Assembly: GCA_031296935.1 (NCBI GenBank)
Contig: JAVDPD010000011.1
Location: forward strand, 30,648 to 94,647
Reading direction: 5' to 3'
Length of the DNA stretch: 64,000 bases
DNA from: Cerasicoccus maritimus
GTDB lineage: Bacteria; Verrucomicrobiota; Verrucomicrobiia; Opitutales; Cerasicoccaceae
This document shows positions 8,981 to 47,591 of the stretch, one piece after another. Each line of letters opens with the position of its first letter. Within the stretch, counting starts at the first letter, position 1. Position numbers and translations under genes: made by a program. A model generated the notes under the pieces. The model was not told the DNA's origin and made no database searches. It was given only the letters and a program-made list of their open reading frames with translations.

Positions 8981-9274
8981 ATGATAAATACCCCCAAGTC
9001 TGGCAAAGCGGCCATGCGGCGCACTTGGGATGAGCGCGAATTGCGCGAGTATCGTGCTCAGTTCCTGATCGGCGTTATTGGTCTCGGGCTAATGATCCTC
9101 ATCGTCTTCGGCTTGGCCGTAGGTGTGATTCCGCAGCACGGTTTAGTCACCATGATTGCAGTGGCGTTGCTACTGATAAGCTTCCCGGTGACGACCATCT
9201 GCCTGCTCAATGCCCTCCGCAAAGGCCCCCGTCATCGCCCCTCGGTGATGGAAATGTTCGCCCACCACCACTAA
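8981..9274 (+). CDS. Small two-helix membrane protein of unknown function
   Basis: A 97-aa protein with a basic, charged N-terminus (about 1-28), two hydrophobic helices (about 29-50 and 56-78) and a short polar tail ending MFAHHH. I do not recognise the family. The start follows the Trp-rich mini-ORF by 3 nt and has no strong ribosome-binding site. The stop codon abuts a double-hairpin repeat directly: TAA ends at 9274 and the hairpin begins at 9275. The codon character matches the neighbouring genes, which favours a real gene. Confidence 0.6.
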   Translation: MINTPKSGKAAMRRTWDERELREYRAQFLIGVIGLGLMILIVFGLAVGVIPQHGLVTMIAVALLLISFPVTTICLLNALRKGPRHRPSVMEMFAHHH

Positions 9275-9563
9275 CCAGCCTCCGGCTGGACCGTTAGATT
9301 TGCCCATTGGGCAAATGGGTGGTGTGCTGTACTCGGTGGGTATATGCTGAATTTCCACTCCAGAGCGGCGGCTTGTCTGGCCAGCCATAAGCTTGGCTGA
9401 ATGGTGGGCGTCGCCCGAGCTGACCACCTATATGAAACTGCGGATCGAGACGATTCGCGCCACCTCATGCAGTTAGACAAGCCATTTGCCCAATGGGCAA
9501 ATCCGGATGCAAAGCATCCGCCGGTCCAGCCGGAGGCTGGCTATGGGTGCAGTGGCACGCTGC
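9275..9563. repeat. Pair of inverted double-hairpin repeats
   Basis: Two copies of the window's dispersed repeat face each other. Copy 1: hairpin CCAGCCTCCGGCTGG (9275-9289), 8-nt spacer, then palindrome ATTTGCCCATTGGGCAAAT (9298-9316). Copy 2, inverted: the same palindrome at 9484-9502, an extra small hairpin (9503-9522), CCAGCCGGAGGCTGG at 9526-9540, and a third hairpin GCAGTGGCACGCTGC at 9549-9563. Copy 1 begins right after a stop codon. Copy 2 reaches into the 3' end of recN. The roughly 165 bp between them has no gene. Confidence 0.85.
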
Positions 9564-11211
9564 TGGACATGAGTTGGCGGGCGTGTTCGCGGGCGGAGGA
9601 GGAGTCGCGGTCGCCGAGCATGCGGGCCAGCTCGCTTTCGCGGAGGTCCTTATCGTCGTCGATGCGGCGGATGGAGACCGTGGTCGAATCGTCGTCCTGC
9701 CCCTTCTCCACCAGAAAATGCTGACGCGCGAGCGCGGCCACCTGCGGCAGGTGAGTCACGCAAAATACCTGGTGATCGCCGGCCAGCGCCGCGAGTTCGC
9801 GGCCGACCGCAGCGCCGATTTCCCCGCCGACATTCGCGTCGACTTCATCAAACACGAGCAGCGCGGTCGAGTCTGCCTTGGCCAGCACCGCCTTCAGGGC
9901 GAGCATCACGCGGGCGGTTTCCCCGCTGGAGGCAATCTTGTTGAGCGGCATCAACGGCTGCCCGGCATTGGGCGAAAACACAAACTGGCAATTGCTGTGC
10001 CCGTGGCGCGACAGCTTGTCCTCGGTGGCGACTTCGATCGCGAAATCCGCCTTTTTAAAGCCGAGCTTCGTCAGCAGCTCCTTGGCCTGCGCAGCGAGAT
10101 CCTTCGCCCCCTTCAGGCGGTTGCGACGCAGCTCATCGGCCTGCTTGCGGAGCGCTTTTTCCAGCTCGCCCGCGCGGTGCTCCAGCTTGATCAGCTGGCC
10201 TTCCACGTTGGTTTGCGAGCCGATTTTCCGCTTCAAATCCTCGCGCTTGGCGCGCACAGCCTCGGTGGTGGGACCGTATTTCCGGCGAATTTGCAGCCAA
10301 GTCTGCATGCGCTGGTGAATGGCCTCCGCCTCGCTCGGGTCAAAATCGCCACCGCTGGCCAACGCGTCATATTCGTCCGCAAGGTCTTCGGCTTCAATGA
10401 TTAGCGCATCCATGCGCCCAGCCAAAGCGTCGGCTGACGAGTCGATTTCCGCCAAATCTCGGGCGGCGCGGAGCACGTGAGAGGCCGCGCGGGCTGCCTC
10501 GCGGGCACCCTCCCCAGCCTGCTCGGACAAAGCGCTCAGCTCGCGGGCGTTGTCCAGGCGGTTAAAGTCACGCTCCAACTGCTCGATGGACTCGTCCGAC
10601 GGGTCCACTTGGTCGATGGCGTTGATCTGGCCCTGCAAAAACTCCGCCTCCTCGGGCGAGAGCTGCTCGGCGCTGCGGAGGTTGTCCATCTCGCGCCACA
10701 GGCCACGCCAGGCGTCGTAGTCGGCCTGGTATTTTTCGAGTGATTTGCCGTTGCGGGCGAAAATATCGAGCAGCGACAGCTGGTTTTTCTCGTGAAAAAG
10801 CTTCTGCGGCTCGCCCGGGCCATGGAAATCGATCCAGATTTCGCCCAGTTGCTGGAGCGCGGTCACCGTCGCCAGCGCGCCATTGATCATCACCTTGCCG
10901 CCGCGTTTGCGGTGCAGGCTCCGCCGCAGAATCAGCGCGCCCTCCTCGCAAGCGGGCAGCTCCAGCTCTTCGAGCAGCGCCACGATATCGCGGTCTTCAC
11001 CCACGTGGAGCGAGGCCTCGACGAGGACTTCGTCCGCACCCACGCGGATAATGGTCTTGTCCGCCCGGTTGCCCGCCAGCAGCGACAGCGCGCCCAGCAG
11101 GACGCTTTTGCCGGCGCCGGTCTCACCCGTCACCGCGGTAAAGCCAGGCTCGAAGTCGAGAGAGACTTCGTCCAGCAGGGCCAAATTACAAATGCGCAGA
11201 AATTGTAGCAC
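9541..11211 (-). CDS. recN: DNA repair ATPase RecN
   Basis: A 556-aa SMC-like ATPase acting in double-strand break repair, close to the usual RecN length. Walker A GETGAGKS is at residues 29-36. A central coiled-coil region is followed by the signature SSGETARVMLALK and Walker B LLVFDEVDANVGGE in the C-terminal third. The final residues (SSVPLHP) and the stop codon are encoded by the dispersed repeat that overlaps its 3' end, so the extreme C-terminus has been rewritten compared with the family. It is flanked by repeats on both sides and has no obvious operon partner. Confidence 0.95.
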   Translation of the reverse strand: MLQFLRICNLALLDEVSLDFEPGFTAVTGETGAGKSVLLGALSLLAGNRADKTIIRVGADEVLVEASLHVGEDRDIVALLEELELPACEEGALILRRSLHRKRGGKVMINGALATVTALQQLGEIWIDFHGPGEPQKLFHEKNQLSLLDIFARNGKSLEKYQADYDAWRGLWREMDNLRSAEQLSPEEAEFLQGQINAIDQVDPSDESIEQLERDFNRLDNARELSALSEQAGEGAREAARAASHVLRAARDLAEIDSSADALAGRMDALIIEAEDLADEYDALASGGDFDPSEAEAIHQRMQTWLQIRRKYGPTTEAVRAKREDLKRKIGSQTNVEGQLIKLEHRAGELEKALRKQADELRRNRLKGAKDLAAQAKELLTKLGFKKADFAIEVATEDKLSRHGHSNCQFVFSPNAGQPLMPLNKIASSGETARVMLALKAVLAKADSTALLVFDEVDANVGGEIGAAVGRELAALAGDHQVFCVTHLPQVAALARQHFLVEKGQDDDSTTVSIRRIDDDKDLRESELARMLGDRDSSSAREHARQLMSSSVPLHP

Positions 11212-11276: not shown

Positions 11277-11685
11277 GCAACGTGCCGTTGCATCCATAGA
11301 TTTTTGCAGAGCAAAAATGGCCGGCGTGCCGATCGAGGTAGGGCGCAGTCTCCATGCGACCAGCTCATGGCAGGCTAGACAAGCCGAGGCGGCGGAGTGG
11401 GAGGTAGCGGCCAGCGTCCCCGCTGGCCAAGCATGTTCAACGAAAAGGAATTGGTCCGCGCGAAGCCATATCCGCGAAAGACGACCTAACGATAATCATT
11501 TATTTGCGGCCTACATCATGGCCAGCGGGGACGCTGGCCGCTACCTCGGAGTGGTCGATTAGAACTCAGAGGCAGCGCAGCGGCTTGTCAGGCCTGCCAT
11601 GAGCTAGTCGCATGAAGACTGCGCCCTCACCTTACATTCGCCCATTTGCCCACTGGGCAAATCCATGACTGCAGCGGCACGTTGC
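11277..11685. repeat. Large nested inverted repeat (MITE-like), about 410 bp
   Basis: The block is symmetrical from the outside in. A double hairpin lies at 11277-11318 (GCAACGTGCCGTTGC, spacer, ATTTTTGCAGAGCAAAAAT), with its inverted counterpart at 11644-11685. Inside is a 46-bp inverted repeat (11341-11386 against 11581-11626) with four mismatches. Inside that is an exact 28-bp inverted repeat (11401-11428 against 11520-11547). The core has no convincing ORF. It fills the recN to tRNA-Val gap. No transposase is encoded, so it would be non-autonomous if mobile. Confidence 0.85.
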
Positions 11686-11762: not shown

Positions 11763-11839
11763 GGGGGTATAGCTCAGTTGGCTAGAGCGCATCGTTGACA
11801 TCGATGAGGTCACTGGTTCGAGCCCAGTTACTCCCACCA
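11763..11839 (+). tRNA. tRNA-Val (anticodon GAC)
   Basis: The 77-nt sequence folds as a cloverleaf. The acceptor stem GGGGGTA pairs with TACTCCC, with one G-T pair. The D-arm is GCTCAGTTGGCTAGAGC. The anticodon stem CATCG/CGATG encloses TTGACAT, giving anticodon GAC. The T-arm contains GGTTCGAGCC, and CCA is encoded. It lies 21 nt upstream of rpmH on the same strand, so the two may share a transcript. Confidence 0.95.
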
Positions 11840-27067: not shown

Positions 27068-28069
27068 ATGGAATACATCATCATCTCATCACTGGTCGCC
27101 TTGTTCATCATCGCGATGGCAATCAAGGGCGTCACGCTCGTGCGCCAATCCGAAACTCTGGTGGTCGAACGCCTGGGCCGTTATCACCGCACCCTGCCCT
27201 CCGGCATCAACGTGATCTGGCCGATTGTCGAAACCGTCCGCGTCATCAACTGGCGCTACACGACCGAGGTCGCCGGCAAGCCGAAGGTGAAATTTCAAAC
27301 CGTCAAGCGCATCGACCTGCGTGAAACCGTTTACGACTTCCCGCGCCAAAACGTGATCACCCGCGACAACGTGGCAATCGAAATCAACGCCCTGCTCTAC
27401 TTCCAAATCACGGACCCGGTGAAAGCTGTTTATGAAATTGCCAACCTGCCGAACGCCATCGAAAAGCTCGCCCAAACGACTTTACGTAACGTGATTGGCG
27501 AGCTGGATCTGGACGAGACGCTCTCCTCCCGCGACCACATCAACCAGAAGCTCCGCGTCATCCTCGACGAGGCCACCGACAAGTGGGGCGTCAAAGTCAA
27601 CCGCGTCGAGTTGCAGGATATCAACCCGCCGCAAGACATCCGCGACGCCATGGAAAAGCAGATGCGCGCCGAGCGTCAACGCCGCGCCGCCATCCTCGAG
27701 GCCGAAGGCCAAAAGAAGGCAGCGATCCTCGAAGCTGAAGGCGTGCGCGAGTCGGCCATCCTCCGCGCCGAGGGCGACCGCCAGGCCGAAATCCTGCGCG
27801 CCGAAGCCGAGTCCAACGCACGCCAGCTCGTGGCCCAGGGCGAGTCCAACGCGATCCGCAGCATCCACGAAGCCATTGGCACCTCGGGTGAAAACGCCGA
27901 CTCCACGCGCTACCTGATCGCCGTGCGCTACCTGGATTCGCTGAAGACCATGACTGCAGGCGACGCCACGAAGACGGTTTACATGCCCTACGAAGCCACC
28001 GGCATCCTCAGCTCGCTCGGCGGCATCAAGGAGCTCATGGCCAGCCAACAGCCACCAAGCGTCAATTAA
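27068..28069 (+). CDS. SPFH/stomatin-family membrane protein (QmcA-like)
   Basis: A 333-aa protein with one N-terminal membrane helix (about 4-20), an SPFH/band-7 domain (about 20-200; VVERLGRYHRTLPSGINVIW, VITRDNVAIEINALLYFQIT), then a helical region of degenerate repeats built on AAILEAEG/ILRAEG (about 205-255). It forms oligomeric rafts in the inner membrane. It is preceded by its partner NfeD in the same operon. A double-hairpin repeat begins 17 bp after its stop. Confidence 0.93.
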   Translation: MEYIIISSLVALFIIAMAIKGVTLVRQSETLVVERLGRYHRTLPSGINVIWPIVETVRVINWRYTTEVAGKPKVKFQTVKRIDLRETVYDFPRQNVITRDNVAIEINALLYFQITDPVKAVYEIANLPNAIEKLAQTTLRNVIGELDLDETLSSRDHINQKLRVILDEATDKWGVKVNRVELQDINPPQDIRDAMEKQMRAERQRRAAILEAEGQKKAAILEAEGVRESAILRAEGDRQAEILRAEAESNARQLVAQGESNAIRSIHEAIGTSGENADSTRYLIAVRYLDSLKTMTAGDATKTVYMPYEATGILSSLGGIKELMASQQPPSVN

Positions 28070-28086: not shown

Positions 28087-28342
28087 CCAGCGTCCCGCTG
28101 GATCGATTGATTTGCACTTCGTGCAAATGCTGAGCGACATAGAAACGGCGAAGATGGAGGCGCGCCAACTGGAGGGCGATGCTCCGTCATCGCCGCATGC
28201 CAGAGTGGCGTAATTAGTAGCACAGGTGTCCCGCCTGTGCCCTAACCAACGGTTTCGACGCGTGTATTTATGAGAGATAGAAGCACAGGCTAGACACCTG
28301 TGCTACCGCAACGCTGGCGGCGATGACGGAGCATCGCCCTCC
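28087..28342. repeat. Compound palindromic repeat block between SPFH and L,D-transpeptidase genes
   Basis: It begins with a double hairpin: CCAGCGTCCCGCTGG at 28087-28101, spacer ATCGATTG, then ATTTGCACTTCGTGCAAAT at 28110-28128. An exact 26-bp inverted repeat follows (28171-28196 against 28317-28342; GGAGGGCGATGCTCCGTCAT...). It encloses two further hairpins built on GCACAGG/CCTGTGC (28220-28240 and 28282-28304). The right arm ends 6 bp before the stop of the convergent L,D-transpeptidase gene. No ORF is present. Confidence 0.85.
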
Positions 28343-28348
28343 ATTTCC

Positions 28349-28891
28349 CTACAGCTCAATCAACACCAGCGCGCCGCTGGGCGTGGCGTCGAATAACTCC
28401 ACGACATCCTCGTTGCTCAGCAACACGCAGCCGTGGCTGTTGGGCGTGCCGATGCGGTCTTCCTGATTCGTCCCGTGGAGGTAGACATAACGATCATGCG
28501 TGTCGACGCCCGGGCCTGCGTTGACGCCCTTTTCCAAACCACGCAGCCAGAGAATGCGCGTCGTAATCAGGTTTTCCTCATTGCGCGCGGCTTCGAGCTC
28601 GTAGCAATTTTCGCCCGTCGGCACGCGGCCTTTGAGCACCGCGCCGGCAGGCAAGCCGTCGCCGATTTTCTCATCGATTACGTGAAGGCCGGTTGGCGTG
28701 CCGAGGGAGTTTTCCACGCAGCTCGGCGGCTTACGGGAGGTCGATACGGCGTAGATTTTGCGCAGTTTCCCCTCTTCCCACGCCCAAAGTTTTTGCTCGC
28801 CAATCGAGACGTAGAGCGCATGGTTGGTCGGTTTCACTTGGCGCTCGTCGCACACTGCGAGCACGCGCTGAAAATAAGAGGAAGAATCCAT
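28349..28891 (-). CDS. L,D-transpeptidase (YkuD domain)
   Basis: A 180-aa protein with a YkuD catalytic domain. His139 lies in VYLHGTNQ, and SHGC at 152-155 supplies catalytic Cys155. These enzymes make 3-3 peptidoglycan cross-links or attach lipoproteins in the periplasm. No signal peptide or membrane anchor is visible at the N-terminus (MDSSSYFQRVLAVCDERQVK), which is odd for a periplasmic enzyme. Another export route or a wrong start is possible. Its ATG overlaps the divergent asd ATG (shared CATG), so each gene's promoter would lie in the other's coding region. Confidence 0.87.
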   Translation of the reverse strand: MDSSSYFQRVLAVCDERQVKPTNHALYVSIGEQKLWAWEEGKLRKIYAVSTSRKPPSCVENSLGTPTGLHVIDEKIGDGLPAGAVLKGRVPTGENCYELEAARNEENLITTRILWLRGLEKGVNAGPGVDTHDRYVYLHGTNQEDRIGTPNSHGCVLLSNEDVVELFDATPSGALVLIEL

Positions 28892-29918
28892 GAGTTATCG
28901 TGTAGGCATAGTCGGCGCAACTGGCGCCGTGGGTCAAGAATTGATCGACCTGCTCCATCGTCGTCATTTCCCGATGTCGGAGCTCGTCCTGTTGGCGTCC
29001 GCCCGTTCCGCCGGCAAAACCATCACCTGGCAGGACAAATCCTGGACCGTGCAGGAAGCGACCCCCGAATCTTTCGAAACTCTGGACATCGCCATCTTCA
29101 GCGCCAGCGGAACCCTCTCCAAGGAGCTTTGCCCGGAGGCCGCCAAGCGCGGCTGCATCGCGATCGACAACTCTTCGGCCTTCCGCATGGACCCGAAGGT
29201 GCCGCTCGTCGTGCCGGAAATCAATCCCGAGGCCGCCCGCGAACACAACGGCATCATTGCCAACCCCAATTGCTCGACCGCCGTCGCGCTGATGGGACTC
29301 TACCCGCTGCACCGCGAGTTCGGCCTCAAGCGTTTCTTCGCCGCGACTTACCAAGCCGTTTCCGGTGCCGGCGCGGCCGCCATGACCGAGCTCGAAGACC
29401 AGCTCCACGCCTGGACCAAGGGCGAGGAACTGACCGTCAGCGAATTTCCGCACCAGATCGCCTTTAACCTCATCCCGCATGTGGACGTCTTCTACGACGA
29501 CGGCTACACCAAGGAAGAGCACAAGATGCTCAACGAGTCCCGCAAGATTCTGGGCATGCCCGAGCTGAAGGCTTCGACGACCTGCGTCCGCGTGCCGGTG
29601 CTCCGCGCCCATTCCATCGCGATCAACGCCGAGTTCGAAAAGCCCGTCGACGTGAAGCGCGCGCAGGAAGTTGTCGGCGTCTTCGAAGGCGCTGAGCTCG
29701 TCGACAACCCGGCCGAAAAGCAATACCCGATGCCCATCGATTTCTCCTGCAAGGAAAAGTGTGGCGTGGGCCGCATTCGCCGCGATGCCGCCTTCGACAA
29801 CGGCCTCGCCCTGTGGGTCTCCGGCGACCAGCTCTGGAAGGGCGCCGCACTCAACGCCGTGCAAATCGCAGAACTCGTGGCCAAGGAGAATCTAGTAACC
29901 CCGAAGGCGAGCGCCTAG
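28890..29918 (+). CDS. asd: Aspartate-semialdehyde dehydrogenase
   Basis: A 342-aa NADP-dependent enzyme that reduces aspartyl phosphate to aspartate semialdehyde for lysine/diaminopimelate, threonine and methionine synthesis. The nucleotide-binding start VGIVGATGAVGQELI and the active-site IIANPNCST (Cys128) are clear. A ribosome-binding site AGAGGAAG lies just upstream of ATG 28890. It stands alone, not next to lysC or dapA. Pairing with a divergent peptidoglycan cross-linking enzyme is fitting, since both serve the diaminopimelate-containing wall, but that may be chance. Confidence 0.95.
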   Translation: MSYRVGIVGATGAVGQELIDLLHRRHFPMSELVLLASARSAGKTITWQDKSWTVQEATPESFETLDIAIFSASGTLSKELCPEAAKRGCIAIDNSSAFRMDPKVPLVVPEINPEAAREHNGIIANPNCSTAVALMGLYPLHREFGLKRFFAATYQAVSGAGAAAMTELEDQLHAWTKGEELTVSEFPHQIAFNLIPHVDVFYDDGYTKEEHKMLNESRKILGMPELKASTTCVRVPVLRAHSIAINAEFEKPVDVKRAQEVVGVFEGAELVDNPAEKQYPMPIDFSCKEKCGVGRIRRDAAFDNGLALWVSGDQLWKGAALNAVQIAELVAKENLVTPKASA

Positions 29919-29924
29919 GCAGCG

Positions 29925-30020
29925 GCAGTGTCCCGCTGCACCGATTGATTTTCGCACTGCGAAAATGCGGTGAGGCAAAGCGTAGAAGTGGAAGGCGATG
30001 ATCCTTCATCGCCGCCCTGC
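29925..30020. repeat. Double-hairpin repeat after asd
   Basis: Six bases after the asd stop is GCAGTGTCCCGCTGC (29925-29939; one G-T pair), spacer ACCGATTG, then ATTTTCGCACTGCGAAAAT (29948-29966). Further on, GGAAGGCGATGATCCTTCAT (from 29990) is a relative of the inverted repeat at 28171, so this is a partial second copy of the 28.1-kb block. It may also act as the asd terminator. Confidence 0.8.
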
Positions 30021-33495: not shown

Positions 33496-33799
33496 GATGG
33501 CAGTGGATTTAAGGATTAAACGTTCAGTGAACATTATTATCCAAAACAAATGGAACCACAAGCCAAAACAGGGAGCATTTTTTCACCAAAGCAAACACGC
33601 AGATTTGTCTTACTGAAAAGGTAGGGACGGTTGCCCTCAACCGTCCGCCACGCAAGCATGACCGCGAGAAATGAAACCGGACGGTTGAGGGCAACCGTCC
33701 CTACCCCATGCACAAAACCACAGAGGGCACGGAGTTGAGAGATGTTGATCTCCGCTTCTCCGTGCCCTCTGTGGTTAAAAAATGCGTCTGATCGAAGCC

Positions 33800-34007
33800 T
33801 TAGAAGCCCTTGATTTCGAAGAGGCTGGTGACGGATTCGTTGCTGTGGATGTGCATGATCGCCTTGCCGAGGAGCTCGGCGACGGACAGCACCGTGATCG
33901 GCAAGTCGCGCGACTCAATCGGCGTGGAATTCGTGGTGATCAACTCGTCCAGAATGCCCGCCTTGTCCTTGAGGCGCCTGTAACCGATCTCGTTAAGCAC
34001 GCCATGA
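33800..34007 (-). pseudogene. prs 3'-end fragment, copy 1
   Basis: It encodes the last 69 residues or so of ribose-phosphate pyrophosphokinase (GVLNEIGYRRLKDKAGILDE ... EIKGF, with K to R relative to the intact gene). Homology starts abruptly after CATGA at 34003-34007. Upstream, the frame runs into the inverted-repeat element and has no prs N-terminus. It cannot make an enzyme, as it lacks the PRPP loop. Confidence 0.9.
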
Positions 34008-34223
34008 ACTACAGAGAGCGAGGAGATTTGTCCCACTGAAAAGGTAGGGACGGTTGCCCTCAACCGTCCGCCACGCAAGCATGGCCGCGAGAAATGAAAC
34101 CGGACGGTTGAGGGCAACCGTCCCTACCCCATGCGCAAATCCACAGAGGGCACGGAGTTGAGAGATGTTGATCTCCGCTTCTCCGTGCCCTCTGTGGTTA
34201 AAAAGATGCGTCAGATCGAAGCC

Positions 34224-34431
34224 TTAGAAGCCCTTGATTTCGAAGAGGCTGGTGACGGATTCGTTGCTGTGGATGTGCATGATCGCCTTGCCGAGGAGCT
34301 CGGCGACCAACAATACCGTGATCGGCAAGTCGCGCGACTCAATCGGCGTGGAATTCGTGGTGATCAACTCGTCCAGAATGCCAGCTTTGTCCTTGAGGCG
34401 CCTGTAACCGATCTCGTTGAGCACGCCATGA
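34224..34431 (-). pseudogene. prs 3'-end fragment, copy 2
   Basis: The same 3' segment of prs as copy 1, with its own changes (VLLVAELLG in place of VLSVAELLG). It lies in the second unit of the tandem array. The breakpoint is identical to copy 1, showing that one deletion junction was formed first and then duplicated. Confidence 0.9.
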
Positions 34432-47483: not shown

Positions 47484-47591
47484 GGTAGGGCGCAGTCTCC
47501 AGACAAGCCGCCCAACGGAGTGGTATTTGCCCATGGCAAATCTATCGGTCCAGCAGGATGCTGGCGGCTTGTCTAGAGACTGCGCCCTACC
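47484..47591. mobile_element. 108-bp MITE-like element enclosing a double hairpin
   Basis: 29-bp terminal inverted repeats (GGTAGGGCGCAGTCTC... at 47484-47512 and its complement at 47563-47591) with one mismatch. Between them lies an inverted copy of the double hairpin: ATTTGCCCATGGCAAAT (47525-47541), spacer, CCAGCAGGATGCTGG (47550-47564). The outer arms share sequence with the 46-bp arms at 11341-11386. It encodes nothing. No target-site duplication was recognised with confidence. Confidence 0.82.

Follow-up and report, generated by a model that had tools for sequence, protein, structure and literature searches.

A double-hairpin repeat family of Cerasicoccus with conserved pairing, spacer covariation and register to stop codons

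Architecture, copy number and spread of the repeat

The 64,000-nucleotide stretch of Cerasicoccus maritimus contig 11 analysed here (the window) carries six complete copies and one expanded copy of a short repeat (Table 1). The complete unit is 43 nt long and consists of a 15-nt hairpin (hp1; 6 bp and a 3-nt loop), an 8-nt spacer, a 19-nt palindrome (hp2; 8 bp and a 3-nt loop) and one further base, which is G in five of the six complete units and A in the unit at 47524-47564. A preliminary description of this DNA had reported a double-hairpin layout at seven places, and direct reading confirms it as six complete copies and one expanded one. The inverted copy that it had placed at 9484-9563 does have a longer spacer, within which a third hairpin (GCGGATGCTTTGCATCCG) sits, but it is not a single copy: it consists of a three-hairpin copy and a separate hp1 piece. 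In the window nothing except a tRNA scores above an Rfam gathering threshold, and a known Rfam RNA family is rejected for the repeat, no score of which passes that threshold; two sub-threshold matches lie near 9275. Elsewhere in the window, the segments at 33756-34006 and 34179-34430 are similar to one another, each with a predicted 66-codon ORF and the same match in one relative (G002), and form a tandem duplication.

Table 1. Copies of the double-hairpin repeat in the window; genes were predicted by a simple, crude hexamer method.
Feature	Positions	Strand	Context
Complete double-hairpin unit	9275-9317	+	Abuts TAA stop (9272-9274) of predicted ORF 9014-9274
Expanded three-hairpin copy	9483-9540	-	Order hp1 - ACCG - GCGGATGCTTTGCATCCG - hp2; immediately behind stop of predicted gene 9541-11184 (-); 31.1 bits
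Leftover hp1 and spacer piece	9541-9563	-	Terminal TAG serves as stop for predicted gene 9541-11184 (-); 18.6 bits
Complete unit	11277-11319	+	No convincing gene end there
Complete unit	11643-11685	-	One mismatched stem pair (A-C); 77 nt before tRNA 11763-11836
Complete unit	28087-28129	+	17 nt past stop of predicted gene 27068-28069
Complete unit	29925-29967	+	Behind TAG stop of gene 28890-29918; 6-nt partial hp1-arm repeat in between (29919-29924)
Complete unit, 17-nt hp2 (7 bp)	47524-47564	-	Flanked by two inverted GTAG-type REPs

A covariance model (R1) was built from the six complete window copies, the same copies that it scores at 56.5-64.5 bits. In the window genome (4.81 Mb, 66 contigs) it finds at least 143 matches at E<=0.001 (best 150 of 1219 candidates scored) and at least 160 at E<=1 (best 150 of 1240 candidates scored), and each of the three other same-genus genomes searched holds the repeat, with 69, 61 and 14 matches. 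The covariance-model search proposed in the preliminary description has thus recovered further copies both in the genome and in same-genus relatives. No R1 match came from the other 32 genomes, for each of which at most the best 150 candidates were scored. Another model, R2, was run under stricter filters on 52 genomes of the order, a set that shares many genomes with the first and was drawn without the three same-genus relatives; it matched the window genome and 0 of the 51 others (best 123 candidates each). The family is far more abundant than chance would allow and is genus-specific as far as it has been searched for. An exact pattern scan of named species genomes returned 19 stretches, six of them in Cerasicoccus frondis NBRC 105381 and the other 13 single matches in other organisms. 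Stretches of 250 nt from four loci of one relative, G001, recur unchanged in C. frondis loci, and to judge from these G001 is very probably C. frondis. Among the matches listed in the PMC literature, no title or abstract deals with the double-hairpin repeat.

Two sets of copies were used for further analysis. The first comprises 89 copies, the R1 matches at E<=0.01 in 1.248 Mb of the window genome (the window, long parts of contigs 2, 3, 4 and 9, and shorter parts selected because matches lay in them); 87 of these lie outside predicted genes. The second has 99 rows, 67 from the window genome and 32 from relatives, the latter being the full-length 43-nt, non-duplicate copies among 65 matches. 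Because these copies are diverse, with 91 distinct 43-mers among the 99 rows, there is no sign of recent movement.

Pairing in the stems and covariation with the spacer

The stems of the repeat change while their pairing is kept, as the preliminary description had claimed from the window copies. Across the six complete window copies 98.8% of 83 stem cells pair, a level reached by none of 500 shuffles, the sole unpaired cell being the A-C pair of the 11643 copy, and six of the 14 stem pairs have changed on both sides, a number that 8 of 500 shuffles attain. The larger set extends this: of 1265 pair cells in 88 distinct copies (15 pairs, namely the 14 stem pairs and a contact between bases 8 and 19) 97.6% are paired, whereas shuffles give 78.6% and slid controls 45.1% at the most. 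Changes on both sides account for 218 of the cells across these copies (0/500 shuffles), and 11 of the 15 pairs show them in the alignment of the 89 matches.

The covariation is not limited to the stems, which was the scope first given to it, since two unpaired bases of the spacer join in. Behind hp1 comes a four-base tail, A-Y-C-S, with bases 17 and 19 as the covarying ones, and then an NTAG-like tag ahead of hp2. Contact 4-17 (GC 61, AT 27) and contact 8-19, which links a base of the hp1 loop to one of the spacer (CG 64, GC 24), are each a Watson-Crick match in 88 of the 91 distinct full-length copies and rank by mutual information among the stem pairs; in the relatives' copies alone, 31 of 32 match at each contact. 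In the 89-copy alignment 97.1% of the 172 cells of these two contacts are paired, where shuffles give 65.3% and slid controls no more than 67.7%, while counts of changed pairs and of pair types do not discriminate when only two contact pairs are considered. Spacer base 17 changes in step with stem pair 4-12, the usual states being G-C.C and A-T.T. Each of the four possible combinations of contacts 4-12-17 and 8-19 is present, three of them with either state of stem pair 1-15, and the pattern is therefore more than the signature of two subfamilies. Because the contact states scatter over a poorly resolved copy tree almost as they do in shuffles, the number of independent co-changes is uncertain; parsimony on this tree gives indicative counts of about 20 changes at position 4 and about 17 at position 8, against about 24 for shuffled labels.

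Covariation between spacer and hp1 suggests a tertiary contact. The 4-12-17 pattern would fit an isosteric Y.R-Y triple, in which a pyrimidine third base lies on an R-Y pair, together with a loop-to-spacer pair. The preliminary description had taken the covariation to suggest that the structure matters. While the covariation itself stands and reaches further than was proposed, kept pairing alone does not prove selection, because exchange of hairpins between copies can replace both arms together.

Register to stop codons and orthologous sites

The family had been described as dispersed and as resembling REP elements in spirit. Its location near gene 3' ends is REP-like, but plain dispersal does not describe a family in which many copies are registered to stop codons. 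In the window genome, with genes from the simple caller used for Table 1, 43 of the 89 copies begin within 15 nt of a same-strand stop, compared with 2.8% of random intergenic positions, and 27 of them begin at the stop itself or share its final base. The stops concerned are TAG (28) and TAA (15) and never TGA, which ends 201 of 1037 genes (Fisher p 1.1e-4), and they are preceded by C, giving CTAA or CTAG, in 31 of 43 cases against 301 of 836 TAR genes. Among the 46 copies that lack a stop at this distance (15 nt), only 2 show CTAR in the nearest 10 nt, which is about the level of random positions (3.4%), and a fixed CTAR target for all copies is not supported. In another eight copies a gene stop lies at offset +23, the place of the spacer TAG, and in four at +16 to +24. 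Under a looser rule that accepts any open frame of 80 codons, 43 copies are at a stop, 16 have a stop in the spacer (some possibly in chance frames, as at 11277), nine lie behind another repeat piece, four are within inverted REP pairs and 17 are placed otherwise, one of the last starting on the final three bases (CCA) of a tRNA-Leu gene. Partial hp1-arm repeats, slippage-like in appearance, start right at the stop codon ahead of several copies, for example at window 29919-29924.

The register extends to the relatives, where 28 of the 32 copies are placed at the stop of an ORF, in 23 cases at -5 to +1 and in five at +23, with the spacer TAG as the stop; two of the 28 stops are TGA. Among relatives' copies with long flanks, 12 of 13 are at a stop, against 102 of 5200 shifted positions. 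The GTAG-type REPs of the window genome have no such register (5/72; 2/28, 0/7, 3/34 and 0/3 in the four families, a fifth, GGAG-type repeat with 1/3 near a stop being left out of the 72). Counting short hairpins by distance from stops gives 44 in the first bin in the window genome and 14-29 in the other bins, and no excess in two other genera of the family, G004 and G005, where the first bin holds 0 and 4 in the small sample of 200 kb each.

A transcription terminator would account for hairpins that lie at gene ends and in many cases between convergent genes (34 of the 89 copies have predicted 3' ends on both sides). We consider this very improbable for the repeat, however, since none of the 89 copies is followed by a T-run and at some ends an intrinsic terminator can be seen by eye further downstream, while in a strict scan terminator-like sites downstream of the repeat are as rare as elsewhere (3/55 within 200 nt vs 43/838 within 243 nt).

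The sites were followed in the three relatives by means of the upstream flanks of 37 copies, those among the 89 that score at least 45 and have a predicted gene end close by. Of 86 loci found in this way, 84 were compared (L238 and L270 left out). The repeat is absent from the orthologous stop in 47 of 62 class-A comparisons. Where it is absent at stop-linked sites, the relative stops at the same codon in 24 of the 47 and within one codon in 35; the hairpin rule used wrongly flagged two relatives and missed two, but all four stop at the same codon and leave the 24/47 unaffected. Because relatives without the repeat stop at the same or a near codon, it has usually been placed at native stops and has not created them. 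For stops supplied by the spacer (17 comparisons), the relatives' stop lies between seven codons before and one codon after, and once 17 codons after.

Some sites are occupied in more than one species. At C14:12392 a fully paired copy lies behind the same stop in all four species, with two stem versions of hp1 and three of hp2 among them, and at C14:11558 a copy is present in three. At the stop orthologous to that of the window 29925 copy, G001 has a copy with a different, paired hp1 and a decayed hp2. In the window genome, the 5' arm of hp1 at contig 4 230786-230828 coincides with the end of the coding sequence in G001 (..GCCAGCATCCTC, then TAG); this arm may be host sequence or an older remnant.

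The stop register found in four species would be consistent with a cis-acting 3'-end RNA element under selection, in which a hairpin behind the stop (hp1, or hp2 where the spacer TAG is the stop) affects termination, the release of ribosomes or the decay of the mRNA. In E. coli, REPs near stop codons reportedly stall ribosomes. The paired copies at C14:12392, kept despite their differing stem versions, point the same way, as does the copy that starts on the 3' CCA of tRNA-Leu. We nevertheless regard a selected RNA element as a tentative and rather unlikely account: absence from the 47 class-A stops implies that the repeat is dispensable for the host gene, and on the sense strand G-U cells are not clearly more frequent than A-C cells (8 vs 5), a strand comparison that is itself uninformative.

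The same loci bear on how arms come to match. The hp2 version ATTTCGCC.. (28 = C), found in 3 of 91 distinct copies, occurs at C14:11558 in the window genome and G002 but, reversed, at C14:12392 in G001, a distribution that points to exchange between neighbouring inverted copies. It would be possible to see in the whole covariation a by-product of such DNA processes, with the arms kept matched both by template switching that corrects them and by exchange of hairpins among copies, and with the fold itself unused; the swapped hp2 would be expected under this account, and so would partial hp1-arm repeats between stop and hp1 that resemble slippage. It explains poorly, however, both that the unpaired spacer bases 17 and 19 covary with hp1 in all four combinations and that copies are registered to stop codons, and we think it improbable as a full account.

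Relation to known hairpin elements and proposed origin

Group-3 REPs of Stenotrophomonas maltophilia consist of GTAG followed by an 8-bp perfect palindrome with a 3-nt loop (PMC8266576), and REPs generally lie near 3' ends, where the GTAG end often provides a TAG stop; the verrucomicrobium O. terrae is reported to be rich in them (PMC3733652). The repeat shares with GTAG REPs and their RAYTs (REPtrons, especially group-3) a short perfect hairpin with a 3-nt loop and NTAG ahead of the palindrome (here ATAG and hp2), as well as high copy number, extragenic position near gene 3' ends and a TAG that at times serves as stop. In contrast to GTAG REPs, it has two hairpins per unit with covariation between spacer and hairpin, and it is registered to native stops, which the four GTAG families of the same genome are not. 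An unpaired GTAG is not the rule before its palindrome, bases 20-23 being ATAG in 43, ATTG in 12, AGAG in 8, TTAG in 6 and GTAG in 4 of 99 copies, nor is there a fixed tag ahead of hp1 in copies away from stops, and a cognate RAYT flanked by the double-hairpin repeat was not found among 21 Y1 loci, of which 13 come from repeat-bearing genomes. The preliminary description had called the repeat REP-like in spirit and not in sequence; size, copy number and location are REP-like, and the tag is not GTAG. We read the repeat as working like REPs and the IS608 left end, but because the tag and a cognate RAYT, two defining features, fail, we do not file it as a REP member.

Other REP-related repeats offer partial parallels. 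CGTC-tagged REPs are described as high-copy palindromes without a dedicated transposase (PMC3733652); although CGTC occurs inside hp1 of many copies, the copies inspected by eye carry no unpaired terminal CGTC, and identity with these REPs is rejected, as unpaired CGTC is found at neither end. Like REPINs and BIMEs, the repeat forms inverted neighbours (of 12 pairs of copies less than 500 nt apart, nine are +/-) and clusters with other REPs; unlike them, at least in the 9275/9483 pair, each copy belongs to a convergent gene end of its own. On their 3' side, 25 of 99 double-hairpin copies have a GTAG or GTGG REP motif no more than 60 nt away, compared with 33 of 1037 gene ends in a control stretch of like size. 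At window 11320-11642, between two inverted double-hairpin copies, a GTAG-type REP pair encloses a second pair with the hairpin GGCCAGCGTCCCCGCTGGCC. Further high-copy repeats in contigs 2, 3, 4 and 9 and the window are GTAGGGCGCAGTCTCC.., GTAGGGCGACGCTTACAAGC.., GTAGGGACGGTTGCCC.. and AAAGATTAAAGGAAAAAG.

The left ends of IS200/IS605 elements are another close parallel. In IS608 the 3' flank at this end forms triplets and there is a second hairpin, and insertion is precisely 3' to a tetranucleotide (PMC5934647). The repeat resembles the left ends of IS608 and ISDra2 in having a hairpin, a short 3' flank that covaries with other bases and may contact them, and a second hairpin downstream. It differs from IS200/IS605 elements in having neither transposase nor right end, with no TnpA between ends, and from IS608 in that the flank covaries with its own hairpin and not with a guide. 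Its fixed left flank (CTAA/CTAG, 31/43) is also confined to stop-linked copies, the others having it in 2/46; a fixed target tetranucleotide is not supported, because CTAR is kept at stops only.

The window genome has two partial matches to the Y1 transposase profile PF01797, on contigs 4 and 5, and there are three in G001, eight in G002 and none in G003, which does hold copies of the repeat. None of the 21 Y1 loci in five genomes, of which 13 belong to repeat-holding genomes (two in G000, the window genome, three in G001 and eight in G002), carries the repeat either in the locus or within about 1.5 kb, in agreement with the earlier statement that the window has no REP-associated tyrosine transposase. 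Single loci, found with PF01797, are labelled RAYT or IS200-type from their flanking repeats and sequence motifs. Inverted GTAG repeats with a different sequence border L002 and L110; L001 1091-1719 and L002 1501-1801 are remnants of two Y1 transposase genes, both apparently frame-broken. The Y1 genes of L094 and L095, which by their motifs we take to be IS200-like, lie by hairpins of 6 bp with a 3-nt loop and 8 bp with a 3-nt loop (or 7 bp with a 4-nt loop) near ATAG or CTAG, a layout like that of the repeat in another sequence. This double hairpin was rejected as the source of the repeat, its pattern having six matches in four genomes, all near these loci. At L095 1240-2280 the Y1 gene of G001 stands among several local multi-hairpin repeat copies.

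The reading that we favour, with about even confidence, takes the repeat for a non-autonomous hairpin element of REP type, specific to the genus and similar to a solo IS200/IS605 left end, that was spread in trans by a Y1 transposase and is kept at gene 3' ends. The element would fold as single-stranded nucleic acid with its tail docked on hp1, as in an IS200/IS605 left end, and would have been mobilised by a Y1 (HUH) tyrosine transposase since lost or unrecognised. Copies that landed at native stops, or that provided their own TAG stop, would have survived because the protein was left nearly intact, and would persist as 3'-end structures in which local exchange swaps whole hairpins and helps the arms to stay matched. 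Family size, genus restriction, pairing, spacer contacts, stop register, the use of native stops and the layout of known systems all count for this origin. Against it count the absence of the repeat from Y1 loci, and of PF01797 from G003, a tag other than GTAG, the limitation of CTAR to stops, the diversity of the copies and the scatter of the contact states over the copy tree. A bolder proposal, which strikes us as a long shot, is a new kind of dispersed element, independent of Y1, whose insertion or retention is directed to native stop codons, often with zero-nucleotide precision, and whose compact 43-nt tertiary fold of triple and loop-spacer pair acts at the terminating ribosome or the transcript 3' end.

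The family combines a tertiary covariation signal with a precise stop register, the latter missing in the other REPs of the same genome, and its many copies can be compared across four alignable species, where orthologous sites are full, changed or empty. It is thereby a clean natural test of whether REP-like repeats are directed to the ends of genes or are only tolerated in such places, and bears on how such repeats choose their sites and which fold is selected.
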